A DNA stretch of 64,000 bases. Origin: Pectobacterium polaris (GTDB taxonomy: Bacteria; Pseudomonadota; Gammaproteobacteria; Enterobacterales; Enterobacteriaceae). The notes under the pieces were generated by a model. It ran no database searches and was not told the origin of the DNA. It saw nothing but the letters and a program-made list of their open reading frames with translations. Shown piece after piece: positions 117 to 29,245 of this stretch. The translations under genes were made by a program, and so were the position numbers. The stretch lies in the NCBI RefSeq assembly GCF_002307355.1, contig NZ_CP017481.1, positions 4,650,001 through 4,714,000 on the forward strand, given 5' to 3'. The stretch's first letter is position 1. The number at the start of each line of letters is the position of its first letter.

Positions 117-270
117 TCTGCTACCTCATGCTTTGTGCCAGCGCTTTCTACACGCCTATGACAAACAACCATTTTCACCACTATACTGCTTTTGAGACCG
201 ATGAAAGTACGCTATTCTGCATCGAATTAACCCTCCATATTCATCTCGCAAGGTAAACAGAGAAACCTCA

Positions 271-960
271 GTGCGACTCTCCGGGTTCAGACTCTCCAGT
301 TACACGCTTTTCTTTATTAGCTGTCTGCTGTTTCTGCTGGCGGGTTCCCTACGTGCGGACTGGGATTTTATTACCATTAATCAGCGAACCGAGCAGCTTT
401 ATGGCCCGGCAACGCCCGATGCTCGCCGCCGAATAGATGAATGGCAGACGCTGTTGGTCAATTCCCGCAATAAAGAGGAAAAGGCGCTGCTGAGCAGCGT
501 GAACCAATTTTTCAATGATCGTATGCTGTTTCGCGATGATATTGTCGTCTGGAATCAGGAAGATTACTGGGCTACGCCGATTGAAGCACTGCGTAAAGGT
601 GCCGGGGACTGCGAAGATTATGCGCTTGCCAAGTATTTTACGCTGCGCCATTTAGGCGTCTCAGCGGACAAATTACGCATTACCTATGTTAAAGCCCTGC
701 GCCTGAATAAAGCGCACATGGTGCTGACCTATTATCCCACGCCAACCTCAATTCCGCTGGTGTTGGACAATCTGACCGACAAGATCCAACCGGCGACAGA
801 GCGCAATGATTTAGTTCCGGTGTACGCCTTTAATGGCGGAGGTCTCTGGCTGCCGGGCGCCAGCGGCAGCAACAAACGAGTCAGTGACAGTAAACGACTT
901 TCACGCTGGCAGGATGTATTAACCAAAATGCGTGCCGAAGGGTTTTCAATTGAGGAGTAA
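271..960 (+). CDS. lapG: LapG-type periplasmic cysteine protease (transglutaminase-like)
   Basis: Protein of 229 residues with an N-terminal signal segment (hydrophobic stretch about residues 10-27), so it acts in the periplasm. The bacterial transglutaminase-like cysteine protease fold is shown by GDCEDYA with catalytic Cys114, KAHMVL with His149, and LDNL with Asp166. In characterised Lap systems LapG cuts the N-terminus of the LapA adhesin at a double-alanine site and releases it from the cell. It uses calcium and is held inactive by c-di-GMP-bound LapD. The start is GTG at 271, chosen because it begins the signal peptide; the ribosome binding site is weak. It is followed 9 bp later by lapD, so the two form an operon. 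Its target is encoded convergently downstream. Function is inferred from family and context. Confidence 0.92.
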   Translation: MRLSGFRLSSYTLFFISCLLFLLAGSLRADWDFITINQRTEQLYGPATPDARRRIDEWQTLLVNSRNKEEKALLSSVNQFFNDRMLFRDDIVVWNQEDYWATPIEALRKGAGDCEDYALAKYFTLRHLGVSADKLRITYVKALRLNKAHMVLTYYPTPTSIPLVLDNLTDKIQPATERNDLVPVYAFNGGGLWLPGASGSNKRVSDSKRLSRWQDVLTKMRAEGFSIEE

Positions 961-969
961 GGGTAGGCT

Positions 970-2922
970 ATGTCTCTATACAAACAATTACTGATAGCCA
1001 TCTGCCTGTTTGTGCTAATTATTTTCAGCGGGAGTTTTTTCGTCAGCCTGGAAAATTCGCGTGAACAGTACAATAACCAGCTTCACTCTCACGCGCAGGA
1101 TGCCGCTACCGCACTGGGACTTTCCCTGACGCCGAATATCGATGATCCGGCAATGGTAGAGCTGATGGTCAGCTCGATTTTCGACAGCGGCTATTTTTCC
1201 AGTATTCGCGTGCGGGATTTAAAAACCAGCAATGTCACGCTGGAGCGCACCGCGTCACCAGATATCCCTGATGTACCACGCTGGTTTGTTCAGTTAGTGG
1301 ACCTGCAACCCGGCGCGGGCGAAGCCATCGTGATGCGCGGCTGGGAACAGGCGGCAAAAGTCGAAGTCGTCAGCCATCCGATGTTCGCGGTGACCCGACT
1401 GTGGCGCAGCAGTACGGCCTCTTTCCTGTGGCTGCTCGGCTGCGGCACGCTGGGCGTGTTACTCGGCGCGCTGTTCCTGCGCCGCCAGCTACGTCCGCTC
1501 GATTATATTGTCGATCAGTCGCTGGCGATTACCCGTCGTGAATTCCTTAGCCAGCCGGATTTGCCCAATACGCCCGAATTCCGCCGCGTCGCACAGGCGA
1601 TGAACCTGATGGTTAGCAAGCTCAAAACGCTGTTTGAAGAAGAGGCGGAACGGAGCGAGCGTTTACGTCAGGACGCCTATCAGGATCCTCAAACCGGATT
1701 GAATAACCGCCGCGCGTTTGACATGCAGTTCAACGACAAACTGGCCGACGAAGAAACCGCCCCCGGCTTTCTGATCATGATTCGCGTACAGGATCTGGCG
1801 GGGATGAACCAACGGCTGGGCGGCCAGCGCACCGATGCCCTATTAGCCTCTGTCGGGCATATCCTGCGCAAAATGCAAAAACAGCATACCAATGCGGAGA
1901 GCCTTCTGGCACGCATCCGTGGTGGGGAATTTGCGCTGTTCTGCCCCGGTCTGGTCGATAAAGAAGCCTATGCGCTGATTGGCGAACTGACACGCAACAT
2001 CGAAACCTTGCATCTAACAGGCGAAACCGACGTCTCCCCTGTCGCCCAATTCGGCATGGTGCCTTTCCGCCCCAGCGACACCGCGCAATCCCTGTTTATT
2101 CAGGGTGATCAAGCGCTCACGCGGGCCGAAAGCAATACCGATACCACCGCGCCTCATGAGATTCCGTCCGTCAGTACCGAACAGGTCGAAACCGATCGCC
2201 ATATGTGGTTTAACCTGCTCGATCCTATCTTGGAACAGGAACGCTTGCAGCTTTTCCTGCAACCGGTCGTCGCGTGTGACGATCCCAGTCAGGTACTGCA
2301 TCACAAGGTACTGGCTCGTATTCAGGATGAGCAAGGGAACAGCATCGCCGCTGGTCGCTTCCTGCCGTGGATTCAACGCTTTGGCTGGGATACCCGTCTG
2401 GATCAAACCATGCTGCGCGAAGTGCTAGACTATCTTCGTCAGCACGACGGTAATCTGGCGCTGAGCCTGTCCGGCACTACGGTTCTGAATCTTCATCTGC
2501 TCGCCGATCTGCTTGCTCCGTTGAAGCATCAGCCTGATGTTGCCAGACGATTGATTCTGGAGCTGGACGAGAACCAATTGCCAGACAGCGCCCAACTGGA
2601 AGCCTTAATCAAGCTGCTGAATGAACATGGCTGTGCGCTGGGGCTACAGCATTTTGGCGGGCGCTTTAATATGATCGGCAACCTGTCGCAATGGGGGCTG
2701 GCTTACCTGAAAGTCGATGGCAGCTACATCCGCAATATCGATCAGGAAGACGATAAACAAATGTTTATCGAAGCGCTGTATCGCGCCACCAACAGTATTG
2801 CCCTGCCGCTTATCGCCGAACGTGTTGAAACCGCCGGTGAGCTGAAAGTGCTTCAGGAGATGGGATTACAGGGCGCGATGGGACGGCTGCTGGGTGAACC
2901 AGCGCCAGCGATCAGAATCTGA
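970..2922 (+). CDS. lapD: LapD-type inner-membrane c-di-GMP receptor (degenerate GGDEF-EAL)
   Basis: Protein of 650 residues. Order: N-terminal membrane segment (about 5-25), periplasmic LapD/MoxY-type output domain (about 26-150), second membrane segment (about 152-170), HAMP-like linker, GGDEF-like domain, EAL-like domain. Both enzyme domains are degenerate. The GGDEF position reads RGGEF (about 317-321), the EAL position reads KVL (about 446-448), and the DDFG position reads QHFG. This is the signature of a receptor rather than an enzyme. In known Lap systems c-di-GMP binding to the EAL-like domain makes the periplasmic domain sequester LapG, which keeps the adhesin on the surface. It lies 9 bp after lapG and is convergent with the adhesin gene. 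Confidence 0.93.
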   Translation: MSLYKQLLIAICLFVLIIFSGSFFVSLENSREQYNNQLHSHAQDAATALGLSLTPNIDDPAMVELMVSSIFDSGYFSSIRVRDLKTSNVTLERTASPDIPDVPRWFVQLVDLQPGAGEAIVMRGWEQAAKVEVVSHPMFAVTRLWRSSTASFLWLLGCGTLGVLLGALFLRRQLRPLDYIVDQSLAITRREFLSQPDLPNTPEFRRVAQAMNLMVSKLKTLFEEEAERSERLRQDAYQDPQTGLNNRRAFDMQFNDKLADEETAPGFLIMIRVQDLAGMNQRLGGQRTDALLASVGHILRKMQKQHTNAESLLARIRGGEFALFCPGLVDKEAYALIGELTRNIETLHLTGETDVSPVAQFGMVPFRPSDTAQSLFIQGDQALTRAESNTDTTAPHEIPSVSTEQVETDRHMWFNLLDPILEQERLQLFLQPVVACDDPSQVLHHKVLARIQDEQGNSIAAGRFLPWIQRFGWDTRLDQTMLREVLDYLRQHDGNLALSLSGTTVLNLHLLADLLAPLKHQPDVARRLILELDENQLPDSAQLEALIKLLNEHGCALGLQHFGGRFNMIGNLSQWGLAYLKVDGSYIRNIDQEDDKQMFIEALYRATNSIALPLIAERVETAGELKVLQEMGLQGAMGRLLGEPAPAIRI

Positions 2923-2956
2923 TGCCATATCGTTTTGGCTAACGGCGTTTAACGAC

Positions 2957-2987
2957 CCGGCTTCTCACTACGATATTGAGAAGCCGG
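2957..2987 (+). terminator. Stem-loop after lapD
   Basis: An 11-bp perfect inverted repeat (CCGGCTTCTCA / TGAGAAGCCGG) with a 9-nt loop lies 35 bp after the lapD stop. No T-tract follows, so it may be a weak or Rho-assisted terminator, or an mRNA 3' stabilising hairpin. Confidence 0.45.
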
Positions 2988-3035
2988 AACGGCTGAACGG
3001 GACGTTAAGGGATGATTTTTGCTTCAAAGCGTTAT

Positions 3036-3098
3036 GTCTTTAAAGCAGTAAGCCTTTAAAACACAAGCCGTTAAAACAGTAAGTTTTTAAAACATTCA
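3036..3098. repeat. Short degenerate tandem repeat, four units of 15-16 bp
   Basis: Four consecutive units share a TTAAAA/TTTAAAG core, for example GCCGTTAAAACAGTAA, in the gap between the lapD stem-loop and the convergent small gene at 3106. Units 1 and 3 share CAGTAAG at the same place. It resembles other short tandem repeats in this window. Confidence 0.6.
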
Positions 3099-3105
3099 CT
3101 ATTCT

Positions 3106-3450
3106 TCAAAACATAGTCTCTTCGTCGTCGCCAATCAGCTTGTTCAATCCGCCATTCAGGGCTTCACGCGCCTGCGCACGGTTGATCAGCTTCAGCTGTG
3201 CCGCCTGAGGGAAGTCGGTAATGCTGACCACGCCTTTCTGAATCAAAACCTGAATTAAATCCTCCAGCACGCGCACCATTTCCAGATCGCTTTGCCGTAA
3301 CTGCTGGAGACTGGACATCGCTGCCTGATGACTGCGGAACCAAGCCTGCGCCTCACGCGAATCGTCGGACAGTTCGCCGTTCATTTCAGGAAAAGGACTC
3401 TTTTCTACCTTCATCAGGTGGCCATCACTGTCGCGCTGGATATAGAACAT
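3106..3450 (-). CDS. Conserved hypothetical protein next to the adhesin gene
   Basis: Protein of 114 residues with no signal peptide or membrane segment, predicted cytoplasmic. It starts MFYIQRDSDGHLMKVE and is mostly helical and polar, with two helix-rich stretches (about 45-75 and 85-105). Proteins of this kind are often mislabelled as a tryptophan synthase beta-like protein. No catalytic motif of that enzyme is visible here and I assign no reaction. It is 59 bp downstream of the adhesin gene on the same strand, with an intrinsic terminator between them. Expression from the adhesin promoter would therefore need read-through. Confidence 0.7.
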   Translation of the reverse strand: MFYIQRDSDGHLMKVEKSPFPEMNGELSDDSREAQAWFRSHQAAMSSLQQLRQSDLEMVRVLEDLIQVLIQKGVVSITDFPQAAQLKLINRAQAREALNGGLNKLIGDDEETMF

Positions 3451-3475
3451 GTTCGGAGACCTTTTAAGTTTTTGA

Positions 3476-3501
3476 TAAAAAAGGGAGCCGGGCAGGCTCC
3501 C
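3476..3501 (-). terminator. Intrinsic terminator of the adhesin gene
   Basis: Read on the minus strand: stem GGGAGCC, 5-nt loop, GGCTCCC, then six T residues, starting 9 bp after the adhesin stop codon. Confidence 0.85.
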
Positions 3502-3509
3502 CCTTTTCG

Positions 3510-6500
3510 TCAGCTCGACGGTTCTGGCTTGCTGACCAGACTTTCAAGCGACGGCAATGCACCGTTATAGTGTTCCAACGTAATCGACACTGCAACCGTT
3601 CCACCTTTATCCGCCGTAAAGTTCCCCGCGGTGCTCACTTCAATCGTCGGTGAACCATGATTATCGGTGATGCGAATATAGCGGCTGATATCAGTGCCTT
3701 CCTCCAGTTCGCCAACCAGATCGCTTAAATCAATCCGGTCACCCTCTTTGGCATTAAAGTCTTTGATCACATCGTTGCCGATATCGCCAGCCTGCCACTT
3801 AAAGGTATCCGCACCCGCCCCGCCGATGAGCGTATCGCCCCCCGCGCCGCCAATCAGGATGTCGTCTCCACTGCCGCCATAGAGCAGGTCATTCCCCGCC
3901 CCACCGTAGAGGGTGTCATTTCCTCCCTGGCCGAAAAGGATATCATCCCCTGCGCCGCCATTGAGTATGTCATTCCCCCCTTTCGACGACGACAGATCAA
4001 ACTCTGAACTGTGCGCAGCAATATAGTTATGCATGTCTTTCGTCGTCGGGACGCCCGTTTGCATGCCTAATTGTTTGCCGATGTAGTTCTGTAAAGCCAC
4101 AATGCCGTTACCGTCGATATTAGGGAACGACACGACATCGCCAAACAGCACATCATCATTATACGTGCCGGATATCGTATCATTGCCCGCCGCACCGACA
4201 CTCAGCCCATACTGTTCAGCACCTTCCGCCGAATAGCCGGTCGCCGTATCGTGGTTGCCCATTTCTGTCGATGTCGCCTGCGCCACGACATTCAATTTAC
4301 CCGCATCGGCCGGCACCTCAAGCGTGATTTTCCCGGCTAACGTCATGGCGTTGTGCGCATTTTGAATCAGGTATGAACCATCAGCACCGACGGTATACTT
4401 CACGTTATTAATCTGGTCGGTCAGCACCGTTCCCGTCGGGATCCCCGTCAACCTAATCCCCGACAGCGTTTCGCTACCGTCGCGGTCGGTCAATGCCGCT
4501 GAAACATCGAGCGTATAGGTCTGTTTTCCCGCCTGACCGGGGACTTTTTCCACCGTTGCGCTATTGGTACCGGGGGTATATGTCGATCCATCGCTGTAGA
4601 TCACGCCTTCGATATTGTTGCTAACCTGCCTCGTAAACGAGCCTGACTTGCCACTGCTATCGGTATAATTAACCTTCAGCCCATCCAGCGTGTTGACCGA
4701 CGTATTCGCGTTGTTGTTGGTGCTATAGGTCGCGTTATAGGTGTAGCCCGTTTCCTTGATGACGAAAACATAGTCAGAGTGCGCGTTGCTGCCATTATTG
4801 GTCCGGTTACCGTTGAATGAATCCAGATCGCGGTGATCCTTACGATCGGCCGCCCAGTCGCTCTGACGATAAAAATAGCCGCTGTTGGAGTGCACAACGA
4901 AGATATCGCTGTAATTGCCATCCCCGCTGGTATTGCCCTGACTGTAGTACGCCACCTTCCCGTTGCCGACTACGGTAGGGACCGAATCCCCCTCGGTCAG
5001 CCAGACGCGGACACCGTTGCCCACCGCGACGATTTTTCCGTTCTGTACGTCAAAACCACCGTTCGCGCTTCCGCCATTCACCTTAATGACTTCCGCAGAA
5101 GCTGGCGCCGTGGTAACGCTGGTCGTGCTCAGGCTTACGACTGGCGCATCGGCGACTGGCGTAATACCAATATGCAGCGCGGCTTTATCGCCCGTGTTCC
5201 CTGCGCTATCGACAGGTCGGTAAGCGATGTCCCCCAGCACTGCGCCAGAAACATTACTCGCAGGCGTAAAGCGTAGATCGGTGTTGCCAGCCGTAAAGGA
5301 TTGTCCAGCGGTGACCGCTTTCCAACTCCCGTTATCATTAAAATAGAGCGTGCCAGCGGCAGCAGGCGGCAGAGAAGAAATCACGATGCTGGTGGTATCA
5401 CTCGATACACCCAAATCGCTCCAGCCAATGTGCAACGGCGTGTCTTCCGTACCAGACACCGTGTTGTTGTGTGCGGCTGGCGGCGTAACATCCATGATGG
5501 CCTGACTGTTATCATGTGCCTGATTACCTGCCGCATCGGTTGCCGTCGCCCCTGCAGTAATCTTGCCTTCCGCTAACGTACTCAGATCGACATTCGTCTG
5601 CCATTTTCCGTTCGTCACGGGCACGTCATGCAGCGTAACCGACTTACCATTAACATCGGTAAAGACCAGATCGACCTTCTTCTCGTTGCTGGTGCCGCTG
5701 ACTAGGGTGTTTTTCGACTCACTCTGGCTGACATAGCCATCGTTACCCGCGAAATTCGTAATATCAATTTCTGGTGCAGTCGTATCTACGCTGTATGCAT
5801 GATGGGTATTCGCCGTGGTGGCATTCCCCGCCGCATCACGCGTGGTCACGCTGGCACTAATGTCACTGTTAGCCGCCAGTACCGAACCGGGAACATTCAC
5901 ACTCCAGGTTTTACCATCCGTATTGACGGTGGTCTGGTAGGTCTCGGTGCCAATTTTTACCGTAACGCTATCGCCCGCCCTAACCTCATTGCCGACTTTT
6001 CCGGTAACAGAGATCGTTTGTCTGGATTCATTAGCGTTAATCACGTTATCTGACGTGACGTTATCAATAGAGATCGACGCCACTGGCGCAACCGTATCGA
6101 CGCCGTAAGTGTGATTGGTGTTCGCGGTGGTGACGTTACCTGCGGTATCGCGCGTCGTAACCGTCGCACTCACATCACCGTTCGCGGCCAGCACCGCCCC
6201 CGGAACGTTGACGCTCCAGGTCTTGCCATCGGTATTCACGGTCGTCTGGTACGTTTCGGTGCCAACTTTGACGGTAACCGCATCGCCCGCTTTCACTTCA
6301 TTGCCAACCTGACCGGTGACCGCAATCGTCTGACCAGATTCGGTAGCATTGATGACATTGTCAGCGGTGACGTTATCGATAGTAATCGATGCGGTTGGCG
6401 CAACGGTGTCCACACCGTAAGTGTGGCTGGTATTGGCGGTAGTAGCGTTACCCGCCGTATCACGAGTGGTGACCGAAGCAGAGACATCACCGTTAGCAGC

Positions 6501-9500
6501 AAGTACCGAACCGGGAACATTCACGCTCCAGGTTTTACCGTCGGTATTCACCGTGGTCTGGTAGGTCTCGGTGCCGACTTTGACGGTAACCGCATCGCCC
6601 GCTTTCACTTCATTACCAACTTTACCCGTCACCGCAATCGTCTGACCGGACTCGCTGGCGTTAATCACGTTATCGCTGGTGACATTATCGATAGAAATCG
6701 ACGCCACCGGCGCAACCGTATCGACACCATAAGCGTGGCTGGTATTGGCGGTGGTGACGTTGCCCGCGGTATCGCGCGTGGTGACCGTGGCACTCACATC
6801 GCTATTAGTTGCCAGCACCGAGCCCGGAACATTCACGCTCCAGGTTTTACCATCGGTATTCACCGTCGTCTGGTACGTTTCAGTACCGACGTTGACGGTA
6901 ACGGCGTCACCCGCCTTGACTTCGTTGCCGACTTTCCCCGTCACGGCTATCGTCTGACCGGATTCGCTAGCATTGATGACGTTATCCGATGTGACGTTAT
7001 CGATAGAGATTGAGGCCACTGGCGCAACGGTATCCACGCCGTAAGCGTGGCTGGTGTTCGCGGTCGTAACATTGCCTGCCGCATCGCGCGTGGTGACCGT
7101 GGCACTCACATCGCCATTCGCCGCCAGCACCGCCCCCGGAACGTTGACGCTCCAGGTCTTGCCGTCGGTATTGACGGTCGTCTGATAGGTTTCCGTACCA
7201 ACTTTGACGGTAACCGCATCGCCCGCTTTCACTTCATTGCCAACCTGTCCCGTGACCGCAATGATCTGACCGGATTCGCTGGCGTTAATCACGTTATCGG
7301 ACGTGACGTTGTCGATTGAAATTGAAGCAACCGGCGCAACCGTATCCACACCGTAAGTGTGATTGGTATTCGCGGTCGTGGCGTTGCCCGCGGTATCACG
7401 CGTGGTTACAGTGGCGCTCACATCACCGTTCGCGGCCAGTACCGACCCCGAAACATTCACGCTCCAGGTTTTGCCGTCGGTGTTCACCGTCGTCTGGTAG
7501 GTTTCGGTACCGACGGTAACGGTAACGGCGTCACCCGCTTTCACTTCATTGCCAACCTGTCCCGTGACCGCAATCGCCTGACCGGATTCGCTGGCATTGA
7601 TCACGTTATCCGACGTGACATTGTCGATAGCGATCGACGCCACCGGTGCAACCGTATCGACACCGTAAGCGTGGCTGGTATTGGCGGTGGTGACGTTGCC
7701 CGCCGTATCGCGCGTGGTGACAGTGGCGCTCACATCACCGTTCGCTGCCAGCACCGATCCCGGAACATTGACGCTCCAGGTCTTGCCATCGGTATTCACC
7801 GTCGTCTGATAGGTTTCCGTGCCGACGGTAACGGTGATCGCATCACCCGCTTTAACGTCGTTATCGACTTTACCCGTCACCGCAATGGTCTGACCCGACT
7901 CAGCAGCGTTGATGACGTTATCCGACGTGACATTATCGATAGAGATAGACGCCACCGGTGCGACGGTATCCACACCGTAAGCGTGACTGGTGTTCGCCGT
8001 GGTGACGTTACCCGCCGCATCAAGTGTCGTGACAGTGGCAGAGAGATCCCCATTGGCCGCTAATACAGTGCCCGGAACATTCACGCTCCAGGTTTTGCCG
8101 TCGGTATTCACCGTCGTCTGGTACGTTTCGGTGCCAACGGTAACGGTGATCGCATCACCCGCTTTGACTTCATTGCCGACCTGACCGGTCACGGCAATGG
8201 TCTGACCGGATTCGGTAGCATTGATGACATTGTCAGCGGTGACGTTATCGATAGTAATCGATGCAGTTGGCGCGACGGTGTCCACACCGTAAGTGTGATT
8301 GGTGTTCGCAGTAGTGACGTTACCTGCGGTATCGCGCGTGGTCACGGTTGCACTGACATCACCATTGGCGGCCAATACAGAACCCGGCACGTTGACGCTC
8401 CAGGTTTTGCCATCGGTATTCACCGTCGTCTGATAGGTTTCGGTACCGACTTTAACGGTAACGGCATCGCCAGCTTTGACCTCATTGCCGACTTTGCCCG
8501 TCACCGCAATGGTCTGGCCGGACTCACTGGCATTAATCACGTTATCCGACGTGACGTTATCGATAGCAATCGACGCCACTGGCGCAACGGTGTCCACACC
8601 GTAAGTGTGACTGGTGTTCGCCGTGGTGGCGTTACCTGCCGTATCGCGCGTGGTGACGGTTGCACTTACATCGCCATTGGCGGCCAGCACAGCGCCCGGA
8701 ACGTTCACGCTCCAGGTCTTACCATCGGTATTCACCGTCGTTTGGTACGTTTCCGTGCCGACTTTGACCGTAACCGCGTCACCCGCTTTGACTTCATTGC
8801 CAACCTGCCCCGTCACAGCAATCGTCTGACCGGATTCGGTAGCATTAATGACGTTATCCGACGTGACATTGTCGATAGCAATCGACGCCACAGGCGCAAC
8901 CGTATCGACACCGTAGGCGTGGCTGGTGTTCGCGGTCGTAACATTGCCTGCCGTATCGCGCGTGGTGACGGTTGCACTCACATCGCTATTCGCTGCCAGC
9001 ACAGAGCCAGGAACATTCACGCTCCAGGTCTTGCCATCGGTATTGACGGTCGTCTGGTATGTCTCGGTACCGACTTTGACGGTAACGGCGTCACCCGCTT
9101 TGACTTCATTGCCCACCTGCCCCGTCACCGTAATGGTCTGGCCGGATTCGCTGGTATTAATTACGTTATCGGATGTGACGTTATCGATAGTAATCGACGC
9201 GACCGGCGCAACCGTATCCACGCCGTATGTGTGATTGGTATTCGCGGTGGTGACATTGCCTGCGGTATCGCGCGTGCTGACGGTTGCTGAGATATCACCA
9301 TTGGCCGCTAATACAGAGCCCGGAACGTTGACGCTCCAGGTTTTACCGTCCGTATTCACCGTCGTCTGGTAGGTCTCGGTACCGACTTTCACCGTAACGG
9401 CGTCACCCGCCTTGACTTCGTTGCCGACTTTCCCCGTCACCGCAATCGTCTGACCGGATTCGGTAGCATTAATGACGTTATCGGATGTGACGCTATCAAT

Positions 9501-16253: not shown

Positions 16254-16634
16254 AATACTTTCTCCTTGATATCTATAATTATTTTTATAATGTGGCGATA
16301 TTGCGGCTATAGATTTTTGCTATCATCCTGATAAGGTTGATTTGCTGTGTGTCGTCCTGACATTTTATGAAAAAAAGCGTTACGATAGTGCTGTCGTTAT
16401 GCGTCAAACGCTTGACTCAATGACCGATATAATAAAAAATTCGGAATATTCTTTCCAGAACTTTACTCATTTAGAGTAAGCCTTATTTTTACCGCATTAA
16501 GGCACGTCAGGAATGAAATTAACACATTGATATAAAAGGAATAAAAACAAATCAATTCGTTAAGCGTTTATATAACACTCAAACACTTTAATAGGAATAA
16601 TCACAAATAAAGTTTTTGTGAAGGAAAACTGCTG
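16254..16634. promoter_or_regulatory. Divergent promoter region between the adhesin and its secretion operon
   Basis: AT-rich 381-bp gap with no gene. It must hold the promoters of both the adhesin (minus) and lapE (plus). Visible elements: the adhesin ribosome binding site AAGGAG just before 16253; an imperfect nested palindrome at 16374-16412 (arms AAGCGTT/AACGCTT); TATAAT at 16429-16434; an RcsAB-box-like site; and AAGGA 9 nt before the lapE start. I could not fix a convincing -35/-10 pair for either direction. Confidence 0.6.
16441..16454 (-). promoter_or_regulatory. RcsAB-box-like site upstream of lapE and the adhesin
   Basis: TCGGAATATTCTTT matches the reverse complement of the RcsAB box consensus TAAGAATATTCCTA at 12 of 14 positions. 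It shares a 12-bp core with a second site at 23565-23578 upstream of the cyclase gene. Sequence match only. Confidence 0.5.
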
Positions 16635-17987
16635 ATGATGCGTAGATACCATTTTGCTTTATTACCTTTTATTACCATTTTTTCCACAGCGACGCATGCC
16701 GAGACAATTCAGGACGCCATAAAAAGTACGCTTTATACGCATCCTGAAGTAAGCGCCTCTATTAATAGTCGTTTTTCTGCCGAACATGATTTACGTGCGG
16801 CAAAAGGCGGATATCTCCCCTCCATCACGCTAAGTGCAGGCGTTGGACGCGAAGAGACCGATAGCCCCTCAACACGCGCCAGCACCAATAAGCGCGTTGA
16901 GCTCAGCCGCCAGGAATCAAGTATCAATCTAAGCCAGACGGTGTTTGATGGTTTCGCCACCTCCAGCGAAGTGGGCAGACAACGCGCTACGGTCAATTCA
17001 CGCGCCTATAAAGTATTAAATACCAGTGAGGCAACGGCATTAGATACCGTTCAGGTTTATCTTAGTGTGCTGCAACGTCAGGAATTTGTCCGTCTGGCGG
17101 AAGCCAACCTTGCAAGCCATGAGCGCATTTACGATCAAATCAGGCTGCGCAGCGAACAAGGCGTTGGGCGATTGGCCGATTTGGACCAGGCTGAAGCACG
17201 TCTTGCACAGGCCCGTAACAACGTGCTGACAGAAAAAACCAATCTGGACGACGCCAAAACCAACTACATGAGCATTGTGGGTAAGGTACCAGAGAATTTG
17301 GTGATGCCCGATGCGTCTGCGATAAAACTCCCCGCCTCGCTGGAAGACGCGCTGCGCATCATGCTGGCTAACAGCCCGGCATTGAAATCCGCGGAGTCAG
17401 ATATTGAAGCCACTCAGCAGCAATATGAGACTTCAAAATCAACGTTTTACCCACGCCTCAACGTGGAACTCTCTCGCACGATGGATAACAACGTTGACGG
17501 AACACGCGGTCAAAATAATGAGTGGCAGGCGATGCTGCGGATGCGCTACAACCTGTATGAAGGCGGTAGCAGTAAAGCCAACATGGAATCAAAAGCCTAT
17601 CAGGTAAAAGAAGCACAGGATGTCCGAAATAATGCCCTCCGCCTGCTGAGCGAAGAACTCAAGCTAGCCTGGTCAGCGTTAAATAACTCGCGTCAGCAGC
17701 TGCCGATTGCCGCTGAATATGCTGACCGCAGTATGAAAGTGCGTACCGCCTATCAGAAGCAATTTGGCCTGGGAGAAAGGACGTTGCTGGACCTGCTGGA
17801 CAGCGAGAACGAGCTGTTCACCGCACAGCGCCGTCTGGTCGAGGTTCGCTTCACCTCCCTCTATACCGAATACCGGATCGCATCCCGTATGGGAGAGCTA
17901 TTAAACCGTTTGGCGATTCCAGCGCCTGATGCCGGTACCAGCTTGACCAACGTCACCACCCAAGCAGAGTTGCCGAGCCTTAATTAA
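16635..17987 (+). CDS. lapE: TolC-family outer-membrane channel of the adhesin secretion system
   Basis: Protein of 450 residues with a signal peptide (MMRRYHFALLPF... ending THAE, about 1-22) and the TolC/OEP duplicated coiled-coil plan. It has the typical first-helix text TIQDAIKSTLYTHPEVSAS and long amphipathic helices around 130-215 and 320-400. It belongs to the AggA/LapE branch dedicated to adhesin export rather than housekeeping TolC. In the Lap system this channel also holds the adhesin by its retention plug. Start at 16635 with AAGGA 9 nt upstream; a second ATG follows directly. It leads the operon lapE-lapB-lapC. Confidence 0.92.
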   Translation: MMRRYHFALLPFITIFSTATHAETIQDAIKSTLYTHPEVSASINSRFSAEHDLRAAKGGYLPSITLSAGVGREETDSPSTRASTNKRVELSRQESSINLSQTVFDGFATSSEVGRQRATVNSRAYKVLNTSEATALDTVQVYLSVLQRQEFVRLAEANLASHERIYDQIRLRSEQGVGRLADLDQAEARLAQARNNVLTEKTNLDDAKTNYMSIVGKVPENLVMPDASAIKLPASLEDALRIMLANSPALKSAESDIEATQQQYETSKSTFYPRLNVELSRTMDNNVDGTRGQNNEWQAMLRMRYNLYEGGSSKANMESKAYQVKEAQDVRNNALRLLSEELKLAWSALNNSRQQLPIAAEYADRSMKVRTAYQKQFGLGERTLLDLLDSENELFTAQRRLVEVRFTSLYTEYRIASRMGELLNRLAIPAPDAGTSLTNVTTQAELPSLN

Positions 17988-18065
17988 TATATTTCATTGG
18001 TCAGACGGCGATAAATTATGCTTTATATGCGGGGAATTACGTTGCGTAAGGGAACGTTTAGTTAA

Positions 18066-20369
18066 ATGAAGTTGCATTCAGTACAAGAGACAAATGGTTC
18101 TGATAAATCAGTTAACCAAGAGTCTATCGTCCAAGAGCCAGCTGTTCACGAGCCGACTGTTGTTCATGAATCGACTAGTGTTCACGAGTCGACTATTGCC
18201 CATGAGCCGTCGATCGTTCATGAGCCTATCGTTAATGAAAATAGTGACCCTCGCAGCCGCCATGACGATCCCTTATTGGATAGCTTGCTGATCCTCTGCA
18301 CCTTGCAGGGGAAATCCGTCAGTCGTACCACACTCACCGCGGGGCTCCCTTTAGCCAACCAGCGGTTATCGGTAAAATTGCTCCCGAGAGCCGCTGCACG
18401 TGCGGGGTTGCAAGGGCGCGTTCTCAAACGTTCTCTGAATAAAATTTCCGAGATGTCGCTCCCCGCGATGTTGCTGTTACGGGAAGGACGTGCGGCGATT
18501 CTGCTAGGCTGGAACGCTGATGGCAGCGCGCGTCTGATGCCCAGTGAAACAGAAGGCGGGGAAATTTCCGTTGAGCACAATACGCTGCAACAGAATTACC
18601 TCGGTCTGGTGATGTTTGCCCAACCTCGTCATCAGTTCGATCTGCAAAATCCATCGCTGATCCCCCGAACCAAATCCTGGTTCAAAGATACGCTGAAGCT
18701 TTCGCGTTCGCTCTATCTCGATGCCGTCCTCGCCAGTTTGCTGGTGAACATTATCGCACTTGCCACGCCGCTGTTCGTGATGAATGTCTATGACCGCGTT
18801 GTGCCCAATCAGGCAACGGCGACACTATGGGTGCTGGCTATCGGCGTGACTGGCGCTTTTGTTTTCGATTTGATACTCAAAACACTGCGCGGCATTTGCC
18901 TGGATATGGCGGGCAAAAAAACCGACCTGATTATTTCTGCCACGTTATTTGAACGAATCACGGGCATGTCGATGAAGGCCCGACCACCGCGGGTTGGTAG
19001 CTTTGCACAGAATATTCATGAATTTCAGTCGCTCAGAGATTTTCTGTCATCACTTACGCTGACGACGCTGATCGATTTTCCTTTTACGCTACTTCTGCTG
19101 CTGGTTATCGGTATCATCGGCGGCCCACTGGTCTGGGTTTCTATACTAGCCTACCCTATCGCCTTGCTGGCGAGTTGGGCGATGCAAAAGCCGCTGTCCG
19201 CCACCATTGAAAAAACAATGCACCTTGCCAGTGAACGGCAGGCTACGCTGATCGAAACTTTGAGTTGTCTGGACGCGATCAAGGTCAATAATGCGGAAAG
19301 TGAACGGCAGCACCAGTGGGAACAGACCATTGGCAGCCTGAGCAAGCTGGAAATGCGAGCCAAGGCACTGTCTTCACTGGCGGTAAACCTGACGCAGTGG
19401 TTCCAGCAATTTGCCGGCGTTGCCATGATTGTCGTCGGCGTCTATATGCTGATTAACGGCAAACTCAGTATGGGTGGGCTGATTGCCTGTTACATGCTGA
19501 ACGGCAGAGCGCTCATGCCGTTGGGCCAGCTGTCTGGGCTGGTCAGCCGTTACCAGCAAGCGCGTTTGACGATGCAAACCACCGAACAGATGATGCAGTT
19601 ACCGCAGGAGCGTAGCGATAACGAACGCCCGCTGAAGCGCGAGAGCATCCGGGGCGGTATCGAATTTCGCGATGTGACGTTTAATTACCCAGAACAAAAA
19701 ACCAGTTCGCTGCAAGGCATTAGCTTGACCATCGCGCCCGGTGAAAAAGTGGGCGTAATTGGCCGTAGCGGCTCGGGAAAAAGCTCGCTGCAAAAACTGA
19801 TCGTAAACCTCTATCAGCCTAATACGGGCAATATCCTGATCGACGGCGTCGATGCTCGTCAGTTGGATGTCAGCGATTTACGCCACAACATTGGTTATGT
19901 TCCTCAGGATATTCAGTTATTTAGTGGTTCTCTGCGCAATAACCTGATTAGCGGCGCACGCTATGTCGAAGACGAAGCCATGTTGCGAGCCGCAGAAATT
20001 TCAGGGGTGAACGAGTTTGCTCGTCTGCACCCCGATGGCTATAACCTTCAGGTGGGTGAACGTGGTCAACAACTCTCCGGCGGGCAGCGTCAGGCGGTCG
20101 CGATAGCCAGAGCGCTGCTGCTCGATCCGCCGATTCTGGTGCTGGATGAACCCACCAGTTCGATGGATAACACCAGCGAAGACCGACTAAAGCAAGCCCT
20201 GGCCCCCGTGATTGCAGAGAAAACGCTCTTACTGGTCACGCATCGGGTTTCCATGCTGGCGCTGGTCGATCGTTTAGTGATTGTCGACAGAGGTAAAATT
20301 ATTGCTGATGGGCCGAAAGCAATCGTGATGGATGCGTTGAAGAAGGGGCAGATCAATGCGTCTCGGTAA
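18066..20369 (+). CDS. lapB: Type I secretion ABC transporter (LapB-like) with N-terminal repeat extension
   Basis: Protein of 767 residues. It has an N-terminal extension (1-60) with hexapeptide repeats, then a C39-like domain (about 68-195) that lacks the catalytic cysteine motif. A six-helix membrane domain follows (about 215-500), then an ATPase with Walker A GRSGSGKSS (about 565-573), signature LSGGQRQ (about 669) and Walker B ILVLDEP (about 690). A C39-like domain without protease activity is normal for RTX adhesin exporters. Those substrates lose no leader peptide and are recognised by a C-terminal signal. It energises export of the adhesin through LapC and LapE. Start ATG at 18066 after AAGGGA. 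The gene overlaps lapC by 14 bp, so translation is probably coupled. Confidence 0.92.
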   Translation: MKLHSVQETNGSDKSVNQESIVQEPAVHEPTVVHESTSVHESTIAHEPSIVHEPIVNENSDPRSRHDDPLLDSLLILCTLQGKSVSRTTLTAGLPLANQRLSVKLLPRAAARAGLQGRVLKRSLNKISEMSLPAMLLLREGRAAILLGWNADGSARLMPSETEGGEISVEHNTLQQNYLGLVMFAQPRHQFDLQNPSLIPRTKSWFKDTLKLSRSLYLDAVLASLLVNIIALATPLFVMNVYDRVVPNQATATLWVLAIGVTGAFVFDLILKTLRGICLDMAGKKTDLIISATLFERITGMSMKARPPRVGSFAQNIHEFQSLRDFLSSLTLTTLIDFPFTLLLLLVIGIIGGPLVWVSILAYPIALLASWAMQKPLSATIEKTMHLASERQATLIETLSCLDAIKVNNAESERQHQWEQTIGSLSKLEMRAKALSSLAVNLTQWFQQFAGVAMIVVGVYMLINGKLSMGGLIACYMLNGRALMPLGQLSGLVSRYQQARLTMQTTEQMMQLPQERSDNERPLKRESIRGGIEFRDVTFNYPEQKTSSLQGISLTIAPGEKVGVIGRSGSGKSSLQKLIVNLYQPNTGNILIDGVDARQLDVSDLRHNIGYVPQDIQLFSGSLRNNLISGARYVEDEAMLRAAEISGVNEFARLHPDGYNLQVGERGQQLSGGQRQAVAIARALLLDPPILVLDEPTSSMDNTSEDRLKQALAPVIAEKTLLLVTHRVSMLALVDRLVIVDRGKIIADGPKAIVMDALKKGQINASR
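18144..18233 (+). repeat. Five 18-bp repeats encoding V-H-E-P/S-x-x in LapB
   Basis: Five consecutive 18-bp units (18144, 18162, 18180, 18198, 18216) encode VHEPTV, VHESTS, VHESTI, AHEPSI and VHEPIV, residues 27-56 of the ABC transporter. A partial VQEPA precedes them. All are in frame, so gain or loss of a unit would keep the gene open. Confidence 0.85.
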
Positions 20370-21717
20370 ATATATCAAACGAATTAAACGGTATTTTGTC
20401 GGCGGAGATGAAGAGAGCCTGCAAACGATGCCAGAAGTGAGCCGGGCAATGGCCGAAGATTCGCCACGTTCTATTCGCTTCACGCTGTGGGCTATCGGTG
20501 CTTTTTTCCTGTTTTTCATCCTGTGGGCCGGACTCGCAAATATCGATGAAGTCACTCGCGGCGATGGTAAAGCCATCCCGTCTTCCCGGCTGCAAAAAAT
20601 CCAAAACCTGGAAGGCGGTATTATCACGGAAGTGTTTATTCGTGAGGGACAAGTCGTCAATGCAGGCGATCCTTTGCTACGCCTTGATGATACCCGCTTT
20701 GCCTCCAACGTCGGTGAAACCGAAGCCGATCGGCTTGCGCTGCTGTCGCGAATTGAACGCCTAAACGCCGAAATCAGCGGTCAAGACCTCGTGCTTTCCG
20801 AAGAAATCACGACGCAAGCACCTAAAATAGCAGCAGGAGAAAAAGAGCTTTATAACAGCCGCCGCCAGCAACTGCATAATGAGATATCCGGCCTGGAAGA
20901 GCAGTTGATCCAGCGCCAGCAGGAACTGCGGGATTTCTCAGCCAAAGAGATTCAGTTCCGCAACAGCCTTGGCCTACTCCAGCAAGAAATTAAAATGTCA
21001 GAACCGCTGATCGCGGAAGGCGCGATTTCTAAAGTGGAAGTTTTACGTCTGCGCCGTGCTGAAGTCGAAACCCGTGGCCAGCTTGATTCCATCAAACTCT
21101 CCATTCCGCGGGCTGAGTCTGCGATTAAAGAGGGCGAAAATAAAATAGAGGAAACGCGTAGTCGCTATAAAAGCGAGGCGCTATCACAACTTAGTGAAGC
21201 ACAAACCAGCCTGAACAAAATTGCAGCCACGGGTAAAGCGCTCGAAGATCGGGTAAACCGAACGCTAGTCGTCTCCCCTGTTCGCGGTATCGTGCAGCAA
21301 GTTCTGGTGAATACCATCGGGGGAGTAATTCAACCGGGTAGCGATCTGGTAGAAATTGTCCCACTGGATGACAAGCTGTTGGTCGAAGCTAAAATTCGTC
21401 CTCAGGATATTGCGTTTTTACACCCAGGTCAGGATGCCATCATAAAATTGACGGCCTACGACTACACCATATATGGTGGCCTAAAAGGTCAGTTGGAACA
21501 AATCAGCCCGGACACCGTCACGGATAAAGAAGGGAACAGCTTTTATATTATTCGCTTACGGACTGATAAGAATTATTTAGGTTCAGCCGATAAACCACTT
21601 CTTATCATTCCAGGCATGGTGGCCTCTGTTGATATCATCACGGGCAAGAAAACTATCCTCAGCTATTTGTTAAAGCCGATTATCCGAGCAAAAGCAGAAG
21701 CACTACGAGAAAGATAA
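20356..21717 (+). CDS. lapC: Membrane-fusion (HlyD-family) adaptor of the adhesin secretion system
   Basis: Protein of 453 residues. It has a short cytoplasmic N-terminus, one membrane segment (about 43-62), a lipoyl-like half-motif around ITEVFIREGQVVNAGDPLL, and a long periplasmic coiled coil (about 120-290). The second lipoyl half and the beta-barrel include NRTLVVSPVRGIVQQV. This is the plan of HlyD/LapC adaptors, which link the inner-membrane ABC transporter to the outer-membrane channel. It starts inside the end of lapB (14-bp overlap) and is followed 4 bp later by a terminator, closing the operon. Confidence 0.92.
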   Translation: MRLGKYIKRIKRYFVGGDEESLQTMPEVSRAMAEDSPRSIRFTLWAIGAFFLFFILWAGLANIDEVTRGDGKAIPSSRLQKIQNLEGGIITEVFIREGQVVNAGDPLLRLDDTRFASNVGETEADRLALLSRIERLNAEISGQDLVLSEEITTQAPKIAAGEKELYNSRRQQLHNEISGLEEQLIQRQQELRDFSAKEIQFRNSLGLLQQEIKMSEPLIAEGAISKVEVLRLRRAEVETRGQLDSIKLSIPRAESAIKEGENKIEETRSRYKSEALSQLSEAQTSLNKIAATGKALEDRVNRTLVVSPVRGIVQQVLVNTIGGVIQPGSDLVEIVPLDDKLLVEAKIRPQDIAFLHPGQDAIIKLTAYDYTIYGGLKGQLEQISPDTVTDKEGNSFYIIRLRTDKNYLGSADKPLLIIPGMVASVDIITGKKTILSYLLKPIIRAKAEALRER

Positions 21718-21720
21718 TAA

Positions 21721-21748
21721 AAAAGGCGCTCGACAGAGCGCCTTTTTT
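21721..21748 (+). terminator. Intrinsic terminator after lapC
   Basis: Stem GGCGCTC, loop GACA, GAGCGCC, then six T residues. An A-run on the other side lets it also serve the convergent diguanylate cyclase gene. Confidence 0.92.
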
Positions 21749-21758
21749 ATTTCATTTA

Positions 21759-23273
21759 TCAATGATCGTTCATGCTGTGATAAATCTGAGTCTGACTACG
21801 CCCCATGGCTTTAGCTTGGTACATGGCGGAATCGGCATTAATTGCCAGCGTCAGAGAATCGGAGCCATGTTCTGGATACAGTGCAATACCGATACTGCAC
21901 GATATATCAAGTTTTTTCCCATTGATCTCAAATGGTTTGTTCAGTGCGTTGTGTATTTTATCTGCAACATAGAGTGTATTATCAATTTCCTTAATACCCT
22001 GAAGCAGAATAATGAATTCATCACCGCTACGGCGATATACCGTATCCGAATCTCGAACCGCACCACGCATACGTGCAGCCGCTTCTTTTAATAGCAAATC
22101 GCCAACAGCATGTCCAAACGAGTCGTTTATCTGTTTAAATTTATCGAGATCCAGGAACATCAGCGCGATCTTTCTACCCGTTTGTTTCGATAACAGAATC
22201 GCCTGCTCCATCTGCTCAGCAAACGTCAGGCCATTAGCCAGTGACGTTAATGAGTCATAGTGCGCCAGCTGCCGATAGTGTTCCTCGCTGCGCCGCAGCA
22301 TATCAATGGCATGATATCGCTCTATCGCGATCGCAATCAGCTGTGCAGATTTCTCGATAGAGAAAATTTCCTCTTCCGTCGGGACATACACTTTACGGTG
22401 ATAAACGCTTAAAACACCTAATATTTCTTTGTTCTGACCAATGATAGGTTCAGACCAGCAGGAACGCAGCCCGGCATATAATGCGAGCCCTTTATATAAA
22501 GACCAATGTGGATGCACGGAAATATCATCAGCGATTACGCGTTTTCCGGTATGGGCTGCTGTACCAAAAGAAGCCACACCATCGGCAATTTTCACATTGT
22601 GAATGGCATTTTTATAAAAACCTGGCAAGCTCGGCGCCGATCCAAGCGTCAAACATTTCTTTTCTTTATCAACGAGCAGTACAGAACAAACAATACGACC
22701 TGGGTTTTTTTCCTCAACGCTGAAAATGATCGCATCCAGGATATCCTTCAGCGGCGCGCCGCTTGATAACAACTCCAGCGCACGATTGTATGAATTATCA
22801 TGATGTTCCTGCGATTTCCGCTCTGTAATATCTAGTTTAATGCCGACATACTGGGTCGTGTTACTCGCTTTATTATATATTTTAACGATATTGGCCTTTT
22901 CCCAATACAACTGCCCATCTTTACGCCGGTTAACGAACTCACCGCTCCAAACATTACCTTTATTTATGGTAGCCCACAGATCTTCATAGACGCTGGCGTT
23001 GGTCATGCCAGAGTTTAATATATTCGTTTTTTTGCCAATAACTTCATCCGGCATATAACCAGACATGGTAATAAACTGGCGATTAACGTAAATAATTTCA
23101 CAATTTTCATCTGCGATCATAATTGAGGCAGGGCTATATTCCATCGCAAAAAAAGTCATGTTGAGGAAGTCTTGTTTTTTCTGCTCAGTTTTAAACTTTT
23201 GTTTAATTTTTCTATTTTTCACAGAAGAAAACAATAACAATAACAACAGTAGGGTTATTATAATTTCATACAC
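21759..23273 (-). CDS. Membrane-anchored PAS-GAF-GGDEF diguanylate cyclase with SGDEF motif
   Basis: Protein of 504 residues. It has an N-terminal membrane anchor (about 4-17, leucine-rich), a PAS domain (about 40-150, with NRQFITMSGYMPDEVIGK), a GAF domain (about 165-325) and a GGDEF domain (about 335-500). The active-site motif is SGDEF (416-420) instead of GGDEF. An RxxD inhibition site, RDSD, lies at 407-410, exactly five residues upstream, as in product-inhibited cyclases. Predicted to make c-di-GMP from two GTP in response to signals sensed by PAS and GAF. It is convergent with lapC, and its product would be read by LapD. From memory, a non-canonical SGDEF cyclase linked to the multi-repeat adhesin of P. 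atrosepticum was shown to be active; this looks like its ortholog. Confidence 0.9.
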   Translation of the reverse strand: MYEIIITLLLLLLLFSSVKNRKIKQKFKTEQKKQDFLNMTFFAMEYSPASIMIADENCEIIYVNRQFITMSGYMPDEVIGKKTNILNSGMTNASVYEDLWATINKGNVWSGEFVNRRKDGQLYWEKANIVKIYNKASNTTQYVGIKLDITERKSQEHHDNSYNRALELLSSGAPLKDILDAIIFSVEEKNPGRIVCSVLLVDKEKKCLTLGSAPSLPGFYKNAIHNVKIADGVASFGTAAHTGKRVIADDISVHPHWSLYKGLALYAGLRSCWSEPIIGQNKEILGVLSVYHRKVYVPTEEEIFSIEKSAQLIAIAIERYHAIDMLRRSEEHYRQLAHYDSLTSLANGLTFAEQMEQAILLSKQTGRKIALMFLDLDKFKQINDSFGHAVGDLLLKEAAARMRGAVRDSDTVYRRSGDEFIILLQGIKEIDNTLYVADKIHNALNKPFEINGKKLDISCSIGIALYPEHGSDSLTLAINADSAMYQAKAMGRSQTQIYHSMNDH

Positions 23274-24060
23274 AATAACACTCTCCTCAGGCCCGAGTGG
23301 TCCTGATCGTACAAATCACAACGCTGATGACGAAAAATCCCGGTAACAAGCCCCTACCCCGTAGATTTTCAGGATGGGTGCATTTCCGGAGAGCAGAAAG
23401 GATGAAAGAAAAAACGCTCCATGAAGCAGGAGTGTTTAGAAACATAGCAACGTAAGCATAAAGCCCTCGCATATGACTGTGCGCAGATAAAAACAACAAA
23501 TTCAAAAGAGTATCTTAATTTAATAGTAGTAATTGTTCGGGTTATAAGCTTCTCTAATGGAATAAAAGAATATTCCTAAGGGTACATGGCGATATATTCT
23601 GAACATCAAATTTTTGTAAGCAAATCAATTATACCAATAAGTATCATTGTTTTAATCAACAAAATCTATCACAAAGTGATTTTTGATCGTTAACAGTAAA
23701 CATTATATTTTTTTACCATTAAAAATCAAATAATTAAAAGAAAAAAATAAAATCATTAACGTAAGCGTCTGATTATATATGTCATAATTTGATGCAAAAT
23801 CCGTAGTCCTCCTCCCTGTTGCTTCATTGAAATTAAACACTGTCATAACAAATAAAATGAGAATTAAATAACAAAAACAAAACAAAATACAGCATTATAC
23901 CTCGATAATCAGCAGGAAAAGAAAGCCTGTCAGGCGGGTGGGATTTTGTACAAAAATGAAATATTAGGAAATATAATGAATTAATATGAAGGAACAGCAT
24001 GGATGGGCATACAGCAGTACTCTACTATGCAAAGTGATAGCCTAAACAACAGGTTATCAC
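23274..24060. promoter_or_regulatory. Long AT-rich region upstream of the diguanylate cyclase gene
   Basis: 787 bp with no convincing gene; short open frames here (for example 23703-23885) lack ribosome binding sites. It lies between pdeH and the cyclase gene, both on the minus strand, and probably holds the cyclase promoter and regulatory sites, including an RcsAB-box-like site at 23565-23578. Base composition is clearly more AT-rich than the genes on either side. Confidence 0.6.
23565..23578 (+). promoter_or_regulatory. RcsAB-box-like site upstream of the diguanylate cyclase gene
   Basis: AAAGAATATTCCTA matches the RcsAB box consensus TAAGAATATTCCTA at 13 of 14 positions. It lies about 290 bp upstream of the cyclase start. 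Binding is predicted only. Confidence 0.55.
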
Positions 24061-24852
24061 CTAAAGTTCAAGCTTCAATGTCTCAAAATTCTCAAACGGC
24101 TGAGGGCGCGAGAGGTAGTATCCTTGGGCAGCATAAGCATGCGATGCTTGAACAATGGCCCATTCTTCCTTTGTTTCGATTCCTTCAATGACCACATAAT
24201 TGCAAAAACGCGATAGCAAAGCGATCAGTGCAGGGAAAACGGTTTTTCCTTCACCACTTTGTTGCAGGAGAATGAAGAGCTCACGTGCCACTTTGATGCA
24301 ATCATACTGAGCCAGCATAAGTGATGAAAAATTCGCCATGCCGCAGCCGAAATCATCCAGCCACAGTGTTTGTGCTTCAGGGAGCTTGGTTAAGATTTCT
24401 TTTGGCAGCCCTCCCTGATTTTCGACCATTTCAAAACGAATCCAGGGCATTGTGGCAATCAGGCGTTTAGCTTCCAGATTATTTTGTAACGCCAGTAACG
24501 TCATGCCATCAATGTTGACGGAGGCAAAAAGACCGTCACGAGTAAATCGAAAATTCCACTGAGATAAAAGTTGCAGTTGTTCTACAATAATTAGAAGGCG
24601 GGTTTCAACATCAATATTCGCGAAGTATTTTTCAGGAGAGATGAACTTTTGCGGCAGGGTAGGAGAAAAAACGGAAGTCAGTAACTCAATAGCCATCAAT
24701 TTACCTGATGTTCGGTAAATGGGCTGAAAAGTATACCGCCGTTGGCATTGGTGCCAGTAATCAGCGCCTAATGGCTCTGCGTCTCCCTGTTGGAAAAATC
24801 CTGCCCCAACCTGATTAAAATGACCTTCCTGCTGCACTATGAGTTCCGCCAT
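24061..24852 (-). CDS. pdeH: EAL-domain c-di-GMP phosphodiesterase, PdeH (YhjH) type
   Basis: Protein of 263 residues made of a single EAL domain. It aligns over its length with E. coli PdeH as I recall it: FQPIYRTSGKLMAIELL, GLFASVNIDGMTLLAL, LWLDDFGCGMANFSSL, VVIEGIETKEEWAIVQ. The EAL position reads ELL as in PdeH, which is active. The metal-binding LDDFG and the EGIET lysine/glutamate motif are intact. Predicted to hydrolyse c-di-GMP to pGpG in the cytoplasm. In enterobacteria PdeH lowers c-di-GMP to favour motility. Here its position beside the cyclase and Lap genes suggests it opposes surface retention of the adhesin. It is separated from the cyclase gene by 787 bp. Confidence 0.9.
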   Translation of the reverse strand: MAELIVQQEGHFNQVGAGFFQQGDAEPLGADYWHQCQRRYTFQPIYRTSGKLMAIELLTSVFSPTLPQKFISPEKYFANIDVETRLLIIVEQLQLLSQWNFRFTRDGLFASVNIDGMTLLALQNNLEAKRLIATMPWIRFEMVENQGGLPKEILTKLPEAQTLWLDDFGCGMANFSSLMLAQYDCIKVARELFILLQQSGEGKTVFPALIALLSRFCNYVVIEGIETKEEWAIVQASHAYAAQGYYLSRPQPFENFETLKLEL

Positions 24853-25583
<731 letters not shown>

Positions 25584-27542: not shown

Positions 27543-29128
<1,586 letters not shown>

Positions 29129-29245
29129 TTACCAATAGATCAACGATGCGTCAAAAACAGCAGCATACGGAACAGCCCTGCTTACTAATTCGGTCAAAAC
29201 TGTTTCGTTTGCATTGGCTCCCGTAAGGAAGCCTGCCTTTCTGCC

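Follow-up and report, generated by a model that had tools for sequence, protein, structure and literature searches.

The Lap adhesin locus of Pectobacterium polaris, its probably cell-wide c-di-GMP enzymes and a small conserved gene

Organization of the locus

We analysed a stretch of 64,000 nucleotides of Pectobacterium polaris DNA (contig NZ_CP017481.1; hereafter the window, in whose coordinates positions are given), taken from a genome that is one contig of 4.83 Mb, for a Lap adhesin locus and the two adjoining genes for enzymes of cyclic di-GMP (c-di-GMP) turnover. A sequence-only reading had described a complete Lap module, consisting of lapG-lapD, a LapA-like adhesin with a TAAG site and lapE-B-C, with a GGDEF cyclase and an EAL phosphodiesterase beside it within 25 kb. 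Checked coordinates and profile searches against family cut-offs confirm both parts of this description, all of these genes lying within positions 271-24852 (Table 1). The lapE-lapB-lapC genes are divergent from the adhesin gene and are followed by the cyclase and then by the EAL gene. LapD and LapG both exceed their NCBIfam equivalog cut-offs, which places the locus among the Lap adhesin-release systems; the linked LapBCE-type secretion genes likewise score above cut-off (TIGR03375, TIGR01843 and TIGR01844), and the adhesin combines a type I secretion system (T1SS) C-terminal domain with a TAAG-type site. The gene for a protein of 114 residues had been missing from the earlier gene list.

Table 1. 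Features of the locus in window coordinates, with the reduced Dickeya counterpart in the last line
Feature	Coordinates	Strand	Evidence or remark
lapG, periplasmic cysteine protease, GTG start	271..960	+	NF045674, 378 bits (cut-off 320); PF06035
lapD, membrane c-di-GMP receptor	970..2922	+	NF045673, 1083.5 bits (cut-off 1020); PF16448, GGDEF, EAL; HAMP slightly below cut-off
Conserved 114-residue gene, database name 'tryptophan synthase subunit beta'	3106..3450	-	Between lapD and adhesin
Inverted repeat followed by T6, likely terminator, between adhesin stop and 114-residue gene	3483..3501	-	Read by eye; scanner called the stem on + only
LapA-type adhesin (MRP), 4247 residues, TTG start preceded by AAGGAG	3510..16253	-	RTX and T1SS_VCA0849 C-terminus
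Tandem repeats of 312 bp (104 residues), about 31 units	5805..15437	-	Tandem Repeats Finder
lapE, TolC-type outer-membrane channel	16635..17987	+	TIGR01844, 315.7 bits (cut-off 225)
lapB, T1SS ABC transporter	18066..20369	+	TIGR03375, 982 bits (cut-off 693)
lapC, T1SS membrane-fusion protein	20356..21717	+	TIGR01843, 436.7 bits (cut-off 209)
PAS-GAF-GGDEF diguanylate cyclase, ECA3270 type, SGDEF site	21759..23273	-	Domains; RxxD five residues upstream of site
PdeH/YhjH-type c-di-GMP phosphodiesterase, EAL domain	24061..24852	-	NF008617/PRK11596, 389 bits (cut-off 190)
Sigma-28 (FliA)-like box, TGAAGTTT-N11-GTCGATGA, upstream of pdeH	24901..24927	-	13 of 16 positions of the consensus
lapB and short lapC, Dickeya oryzae ZYY5	L014:11529-14550		

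The adhesin contains 31 in-register repeats of exactly 104 residues each, with a mean pairwise identity of 0.90, and its N-terminus, which we take to be of the retention-module type, carries a TAAG at which cleavage is predicted; among the 25 loci in which the adhesin N-terminus is found, 19 have TAAG, five a variant, and in one the region is cut off. In LapD, the GGDEF and EAL sites read RGGEF and KVLAR, which fits a receptor and would be unusual in an enzyme. The distance from lapD to the cyclase gene ranges from 16.6 to 25.7 kb in the 16 of 25 same-genus genomes that have both genes on one contig, a range that would correspond to about 12 to 42 adhesin repeats if repeats explain the whole difference, bearing in mind that draft assemblies may collapse repeats.

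The window locus is the known Pectobacterium MRP (multi-repeat adhesin) or Lap locus, and the module is thus already known: its gene content matches that of ECA3262-ECA3271 in Pectobacterium atrosepticum, for which papers list an adhesin, a T1SS, a cyclase with SGDEF and an EAL gene together. We know of no difference in kind between the two, and the number of adhesin repeats may differ. The Lap system of Pseudomonas fluorescens Pf0-1 shares the LapD and LapG equivalogs, the LssB-type transporter and the TAAG-type adhesin site, whereas the adjoining PAS-GAF-SGDEF cyclase and PdeH set the window locus apart from the known Pf0-1 layout. Papers are cited here for the passages that bear on the locus. 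In P. atrosepticum, ECA3266 (the multi-repeat adhesin), ECA3270 and ECA3271 are tabulated together in a review that cites Perez-Mendoza 2011 and reports c-di-GMP-dependent control of the surface adhesin (PMC6584795), the island HAI15 is drawn from ECA3262 to ECA3270 with ECA3271 outside it (PMC2718846), and ECA3270 and ECA3271 are among the genes raised in starved cells (PMC5230779). Across the genus, lapBCE are reported in 84 of 84 Pectobacterium genomes and as lacking in the Dickeya strains of that study (PMC6286560), pdeH of P. betavasculorum is listed with the lap genes under T1SS (PMC10991766), and the adhesin gene is described as varying widely in size, one subspecies having MRP and LapG pseudogenes (PMC6963963). 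The sequence-only reading had mentioned a partly described relative in P. atrosepticum and left regulation and variation as the open part; the kinship is borne out, and what is in print was understated, since conservation and adhesin-length variation have both been published (PMC6286560, PMC6963963). The locus having been studied already, the general claim adds little, and the new parts are the small 114-residue gene and a reduced form of the locus in Dickeya.

The cyclase and PdeH as a c-di-GMP pair

The EAL protein belongs to the PdeH/YhjH type, scoring far above the cut-off of NF008617, which we take to be the PdeH/YhjH model. In Escherichia coli, PdeH is a cell-wide, motility-linked phosphodiesterase whose gene, yhjH, is controlled by FliA; its chromosomal neighbourhood there differs from that in the window. 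The gene in the window has a putative promoter sequence of the flagellar type. A box matching at least 12 of the 16 positions of the sigma-28 consensus lies upstream of pdeH in 25 of the 28 loci scanned (L022 and L023, with broken genes, being left out), at -62 to -77, and none of the 28 reaches 12 positions upstream of the cyclase. PdeH may well be under flagellar (sigma-28) control. Rfam at gathering cut-offs identified no RNA element in the 788 bp that separate cyclase and pdeH, the sole match in window 1-31000 being rncO at 29071-29246.

The cyclase carries SGDEF, a tolerated variant of the GG(D/E)EF site, which is present in 29 of 30 loci and replaced by SGDKF in the remaining one; its closest relative among the 77 matches listed for named loci is that of Pectobacterium carotovorum DSM 30168. 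The solved chains nearest to its PAS region are 3ewk, with 121 bits over two segments, and 2gj3, titled 'nitrogen fixation regulatory protein', with 84 bits, presumably both redox sensors that bind flavin adenine dinucleotide, and this resemblance makes a redox input to the cyclase through PAS a reasonable guess. Photosensing of the light-oxygen-voltage (LOV) kind was considered and set aside, as the stretch aligned with LOV-type proteins has no cysteine, a residue that the LOV motif contains. With regard to activity, ECA3270 is cited as active despite its SGDEF site (PMC3974145). The counterparts in Dickeya zeae EC1 are W909_14945, a PAS-GAF-SGDEF cyclase, and W909_14950, a YhjH-like phosphodiesterase, which we match to the window pair by their domains, the SGDEF site, the consecutive locus tags and the adjacent pair in D. 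oryzae ZYY5. Both are reported to be active in vitro, and deleting them strongly shifts total c-di-GMP and swimming (PMC7733949).

Among the 147 genomes sampled for distribution, 28, from four genera, have the cyclase at an E of 1e-80 or lower, and it adjoins pdeH in all of them (pdeH being broken in one). It is absent from six genera of this sample that have a LapD orthologue, and in the four of these with PdeH the latter is encoded on a separate contig or at a distance of 0.7 Mb. PdeH is also present in 15 other genera that lack the cyclase. As side observations, the Pectobacterium record L023 has pdeH, lapC, lapB and acpS broken or partial, and record G021 has lapD and pdeH in this state, in both cases possibly through sequencing error.

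The comparison of locus order between Pectobacterium and Dickeya that had been proposed as a check shows an order conserved in Pectobacterium and a pair of enzymes that persists in Dickeya after the module is gone. D. oryzae ZYY5 (L014), three genomes of genus g376 (L201-L203), which we treat as Dickeya because their 114-residue protein shares 92-97% identity with the D. dadantii protein, and genome G038 (L109) all retain cyclase, pdeH, lapB and the 114-residue gene, with no match to lapG, lapD, the adhesin or lapE at any of these loci. A whole-genome search of the three g376 genomes and G038 found no LapG-family match and only sub-cut-off matches to LapD domains, in two of them. The enzymes are thus not lost together with the Lap module. 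The ratio of nonsynonymous to synonymous substitution rates (dN/dS) is 0.006-0.012 for the Dickeya cyclase (6 pairs, 4 loci) and 0.011-0.030 for that of lap-bearing Pectobacterium and Brenneria (15 pairs, 6 loci), and 0.044-0.071 versus 0.035-0.076 for pdeH, all of them rough ratios because several dS values exceed 1.5 and are saturated; for G038, dS is saturated for both genes and yields no ratio. Adhesin loss in Dickeya did not visibly relax selection on the cyclase or pdeH.

Taken together, we consider it likely that the window holds a known Lap locus whose cyclase and PdeH are a cell-wide c-di-GMP pair read by LapD, with no private switch. Under this model, LapBCE would secrete the long repeat adhesin, and the N-terminal retention module would keep it lodged in place. 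At high cytoplasmic c-di-GMP, LapD would bind the nucleotide and hold LapG, so that the adhesin stays on the surface, and a drop in c-di-GMP would free LapG to cut at TAAG and release it; this Lap logic is carried over from published systems, as restated in PMC6584795. The cyclase and PdeH would set the pool that LapD reads, the former raising c-di-GMP through its GAF domain and its PAS domain, which resembles redox sensors that bind flavin, and the latter, if under flagellar control, lowering it in motile cells, which would then shed their adhesin. The two enzymes are better read as a main c-di-GMP pair of the whole cell, one that is linked to the release of the adhesin by the pool they share with LapD and by what is probably flagellar control.

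The sequence-only reading had instead suggested a dedicated local signalling circuit, in which the two enzymes would serve LapD alone, for example by direct contact. Gene order speaks for such a circuit, given that the two genes stand side by side wherever the cyclase was found and, in each of the 25 named loci, next to lapC or what is left of it, as does the listing of ECA3270 and ECA3271 with this T1SS (PMC6584795). Beyond this, what favours it is that GGDEF and EAL matches recur about 2 kb from lapG in L117, L207, L208, L216 and L218, from two other genera of the family (g20 and g24), one of which is among the six lap-bearing genera without the cyclase; the gene at L117:2610-4841 encodes an unrelated GGDEF-EAL protein of 744 residues. 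We nevertheless judge a dedicated circuit to be quite improbable and have replaced it with the global pair, because PdeH is of the YhjH type and has a conserved flagellar-type box, the D. zeae counterparts are main determinants of c-di-GMP throughout the cell (PMC7733949), lap genes are present in six genera without this cyclase, and the Dickeya pair is equally constrained with LapD and LapG gone.

Several points weigh against a cell-wide pair, beginning with the saturation of dS and with the recurrence of GGDEF-EAL genes near lapG, because of which c-di-GMP genes near lap may exceed chance. The EAL site of PdeH reads ELLTS and lacks the arginine of EXLXR, leaving the signature incomplete; this is not decisive because the D. 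zeae counterpart is reported to lack a key motif as well and yet to be active (PMC7733949). The solved chain closest to the EAL protein is STM1697, which is no PdeH. Three Lonsdalea loci have no box upstream of pdeH, shuffled single loci matched the box score in 0-11% of trials (over the 25 loci with a box), and many of the 28 loci scanned are close relatives, so that the box argument leans on conserved position. In D. zeae, a second phosphodiesterase (W909_10355) and a second cyclase (W909_02155) are also important, and complementation of W909_14945 was only partial (PMC7733949). Lastly, a global enzyme may act locally by contact with LapD. A different explanation of the adjacency is that the horizontally acquired lap island HAI15 landed by accident beside a pre-existing pdeH, as might be expected from the drawing of HAI15 without ECA3271 (PMC2718846) and from the 15 genera that have PdeH and no cyclase. 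However, the cyclase lies inside HAI15 and still adjoins pdeH in all 28 genomes that have it, and the orientation and spacing of the two genes are kept across several genera. We regard such an accident as possible, while leaning against it.

The Dickeya remnant and the 114-residue gene

What remains of the secretion genes in Dickeya is itself altered. In the four Dickeya loci (L014 and L201-L203), LapC has lost about 170 residues, in frame, between the two lipoyl halves, the region that forms a helical hairpin in HlyD-type proteins, while the membrane helix and barrel can still be aligned; at the G038 locus there was no lapC match. The LapB frame, at 726-732 residues, is complete and includes both Walker A and LSGGQ, and an exact LVLDEPT is found in two of the four proteins, this motif also being missing in some lap-bearing relatives. 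The dN/dS of lapB is 0.063-0.098 in Dickeya versus 0.017-0.044 in lap-bearing relatives (14 of 15 pairs computable), and that of the short lapC is 0.110-0.142 versus 0.021-0.056 for lapC of lap-bearing relatives (8 of 15 pairs computable). Both genes are relaxed yet maintained, with ratios far below 1, and their maintenance suggests that Dickeya LapB and the short LapC may have an adhesin-independent role. A predicted structure of the short LapC had a mean pLDDT (predicted local distance difference test) of 50 and was not used. In the open-access literature, we found no description of this remnant. Separately, LapB has a variable N-terminal tail, HEPT/HEST-like and encoded by 18-bp repeats at window 18143-18226, and LapB length varies among species.

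The 114-residue protein matched no Pfam or NCBIfam family, and its database name, 'tryptophan synthase subunit beta', looks wrong. Its predicted structure has a mean pLDDT of 80.5 and a predicted template modelling score of 0.45, with no match in the PDB at E 0.001. Within a sample of 295 genomes of the family, the gene is present in 44, including all 39 in which LapD has an orthologue with an E no higher than 1e-150; in 38 of these it lies less than 250 bp from lapD, and in G035 it is 10.6 kb away, past the adhesin. The five carriers without LapD at this threshold, namely the three g376 genomes, G038 and G513, the last with a broken lapD amid other lap genes, still hold lap genes or remnants of them. 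The gene is under constraint, with dN/dS of 0.043-0.080 in Dickeya and a median of 0.043 in Pectobacterium and Brenneria (337 pairs, dS 0.3-1.7).

The association extends beyond the family. In a class-wide sample of 321 gammaproteobacterial genomes, 28 carry the gene, and LapG scoring no less than 150 bits, a threshold set after the fact, is found in 23 of these 28 versus 22 of the 293 non-carriers (Fisher p 3.6e-18, uncorrected for kinship); at E 0.001 the counts are 23 of 28 versus 38 of 293 (p 2.5e-14, likewise uncorrected). Lap genes lie within about 10 kb of the relative of the 114-residue gene in 19 of 26 neighbourhoods, the sole trace in one of them being a weak match to lapE that adjoins a frame of 2349 residues, and a named Halomonas record has lapG, lapD and the 114-residue gene together. 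The position and strand of the gene shift between loci while its linkage to lap persists.

These patterns lead us to infer that the gene encodes a further cytoplasmic component of adhesin secretion. As to its partner, the arrangement in G033, where each of two adhesins is adjoined by its own copy of the gene, hints at the adhesin, while its retention with lapB and no adhesin in Dickeya and G038 hints at the transporter. We would give an even chance to a combined reading in which the protein is a core part of Lap secretion, such as a cytoplasmic LapB or adhesin partner acting as a chaperone or docking factor, and the 114-residue protein, LapB and short LapC of Dickeya form a repurposed, reduced type I transporter. 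The gene could instead be hitchhiking in the locus while serving some function outside Lap, as its intact state in G038 and its intact and constrained state in Dickeya, where adhesin, LapD and LapG are gone, might indicate. To this may be added that seven of the 26 neighbourhoods have a divergent relative with no lap genes nearby, that 22 of the 45 LapG-bearing genomes of the class-wide sample lack the gene, and that among the 39 LapD-linked copies two (G567 and G650) match only from about residue 39 onward, over the C-terminal two thirds, and a third (G636) is interrupted by a stop. We find a hitchhiker rather unlikely, given the presence of the gene in every LapD-bearing genome of the family, almost always next to lapD, the lap genes or remnants in the other five carriers, a linkage that holds despite changed position and strand, and the paired copies of G033. 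With this distribution, the gene is a candidate for an overlooked secretion factor that can be tested directly, and the lead looks new, the gene not having been found as a Lap component in the open-access literature.

Two other assignments of the 114-residue protein were dropped. A divergent match beside phage-like genes had raised the question of phage kinship; none of seven members matched PHROG below E 0.01, nor was there any match at E 0.01 among 50,697 phage records. The names LssX/Y/Z/A, from the Legionella rtxA locus, have no basis in the literature passages. Among plasmid records there is a single match, on a Halomonas replicon.

Outside these genes, window 1-117 contains the start of a minus-strand gene that by eye resembles what we take to be murQ, a murQ-like gene also following the locus in D. 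oryzae, and short tandem repeats lie at window 39938-40012 and 41067-41130, near two tRNA-Ala genes.

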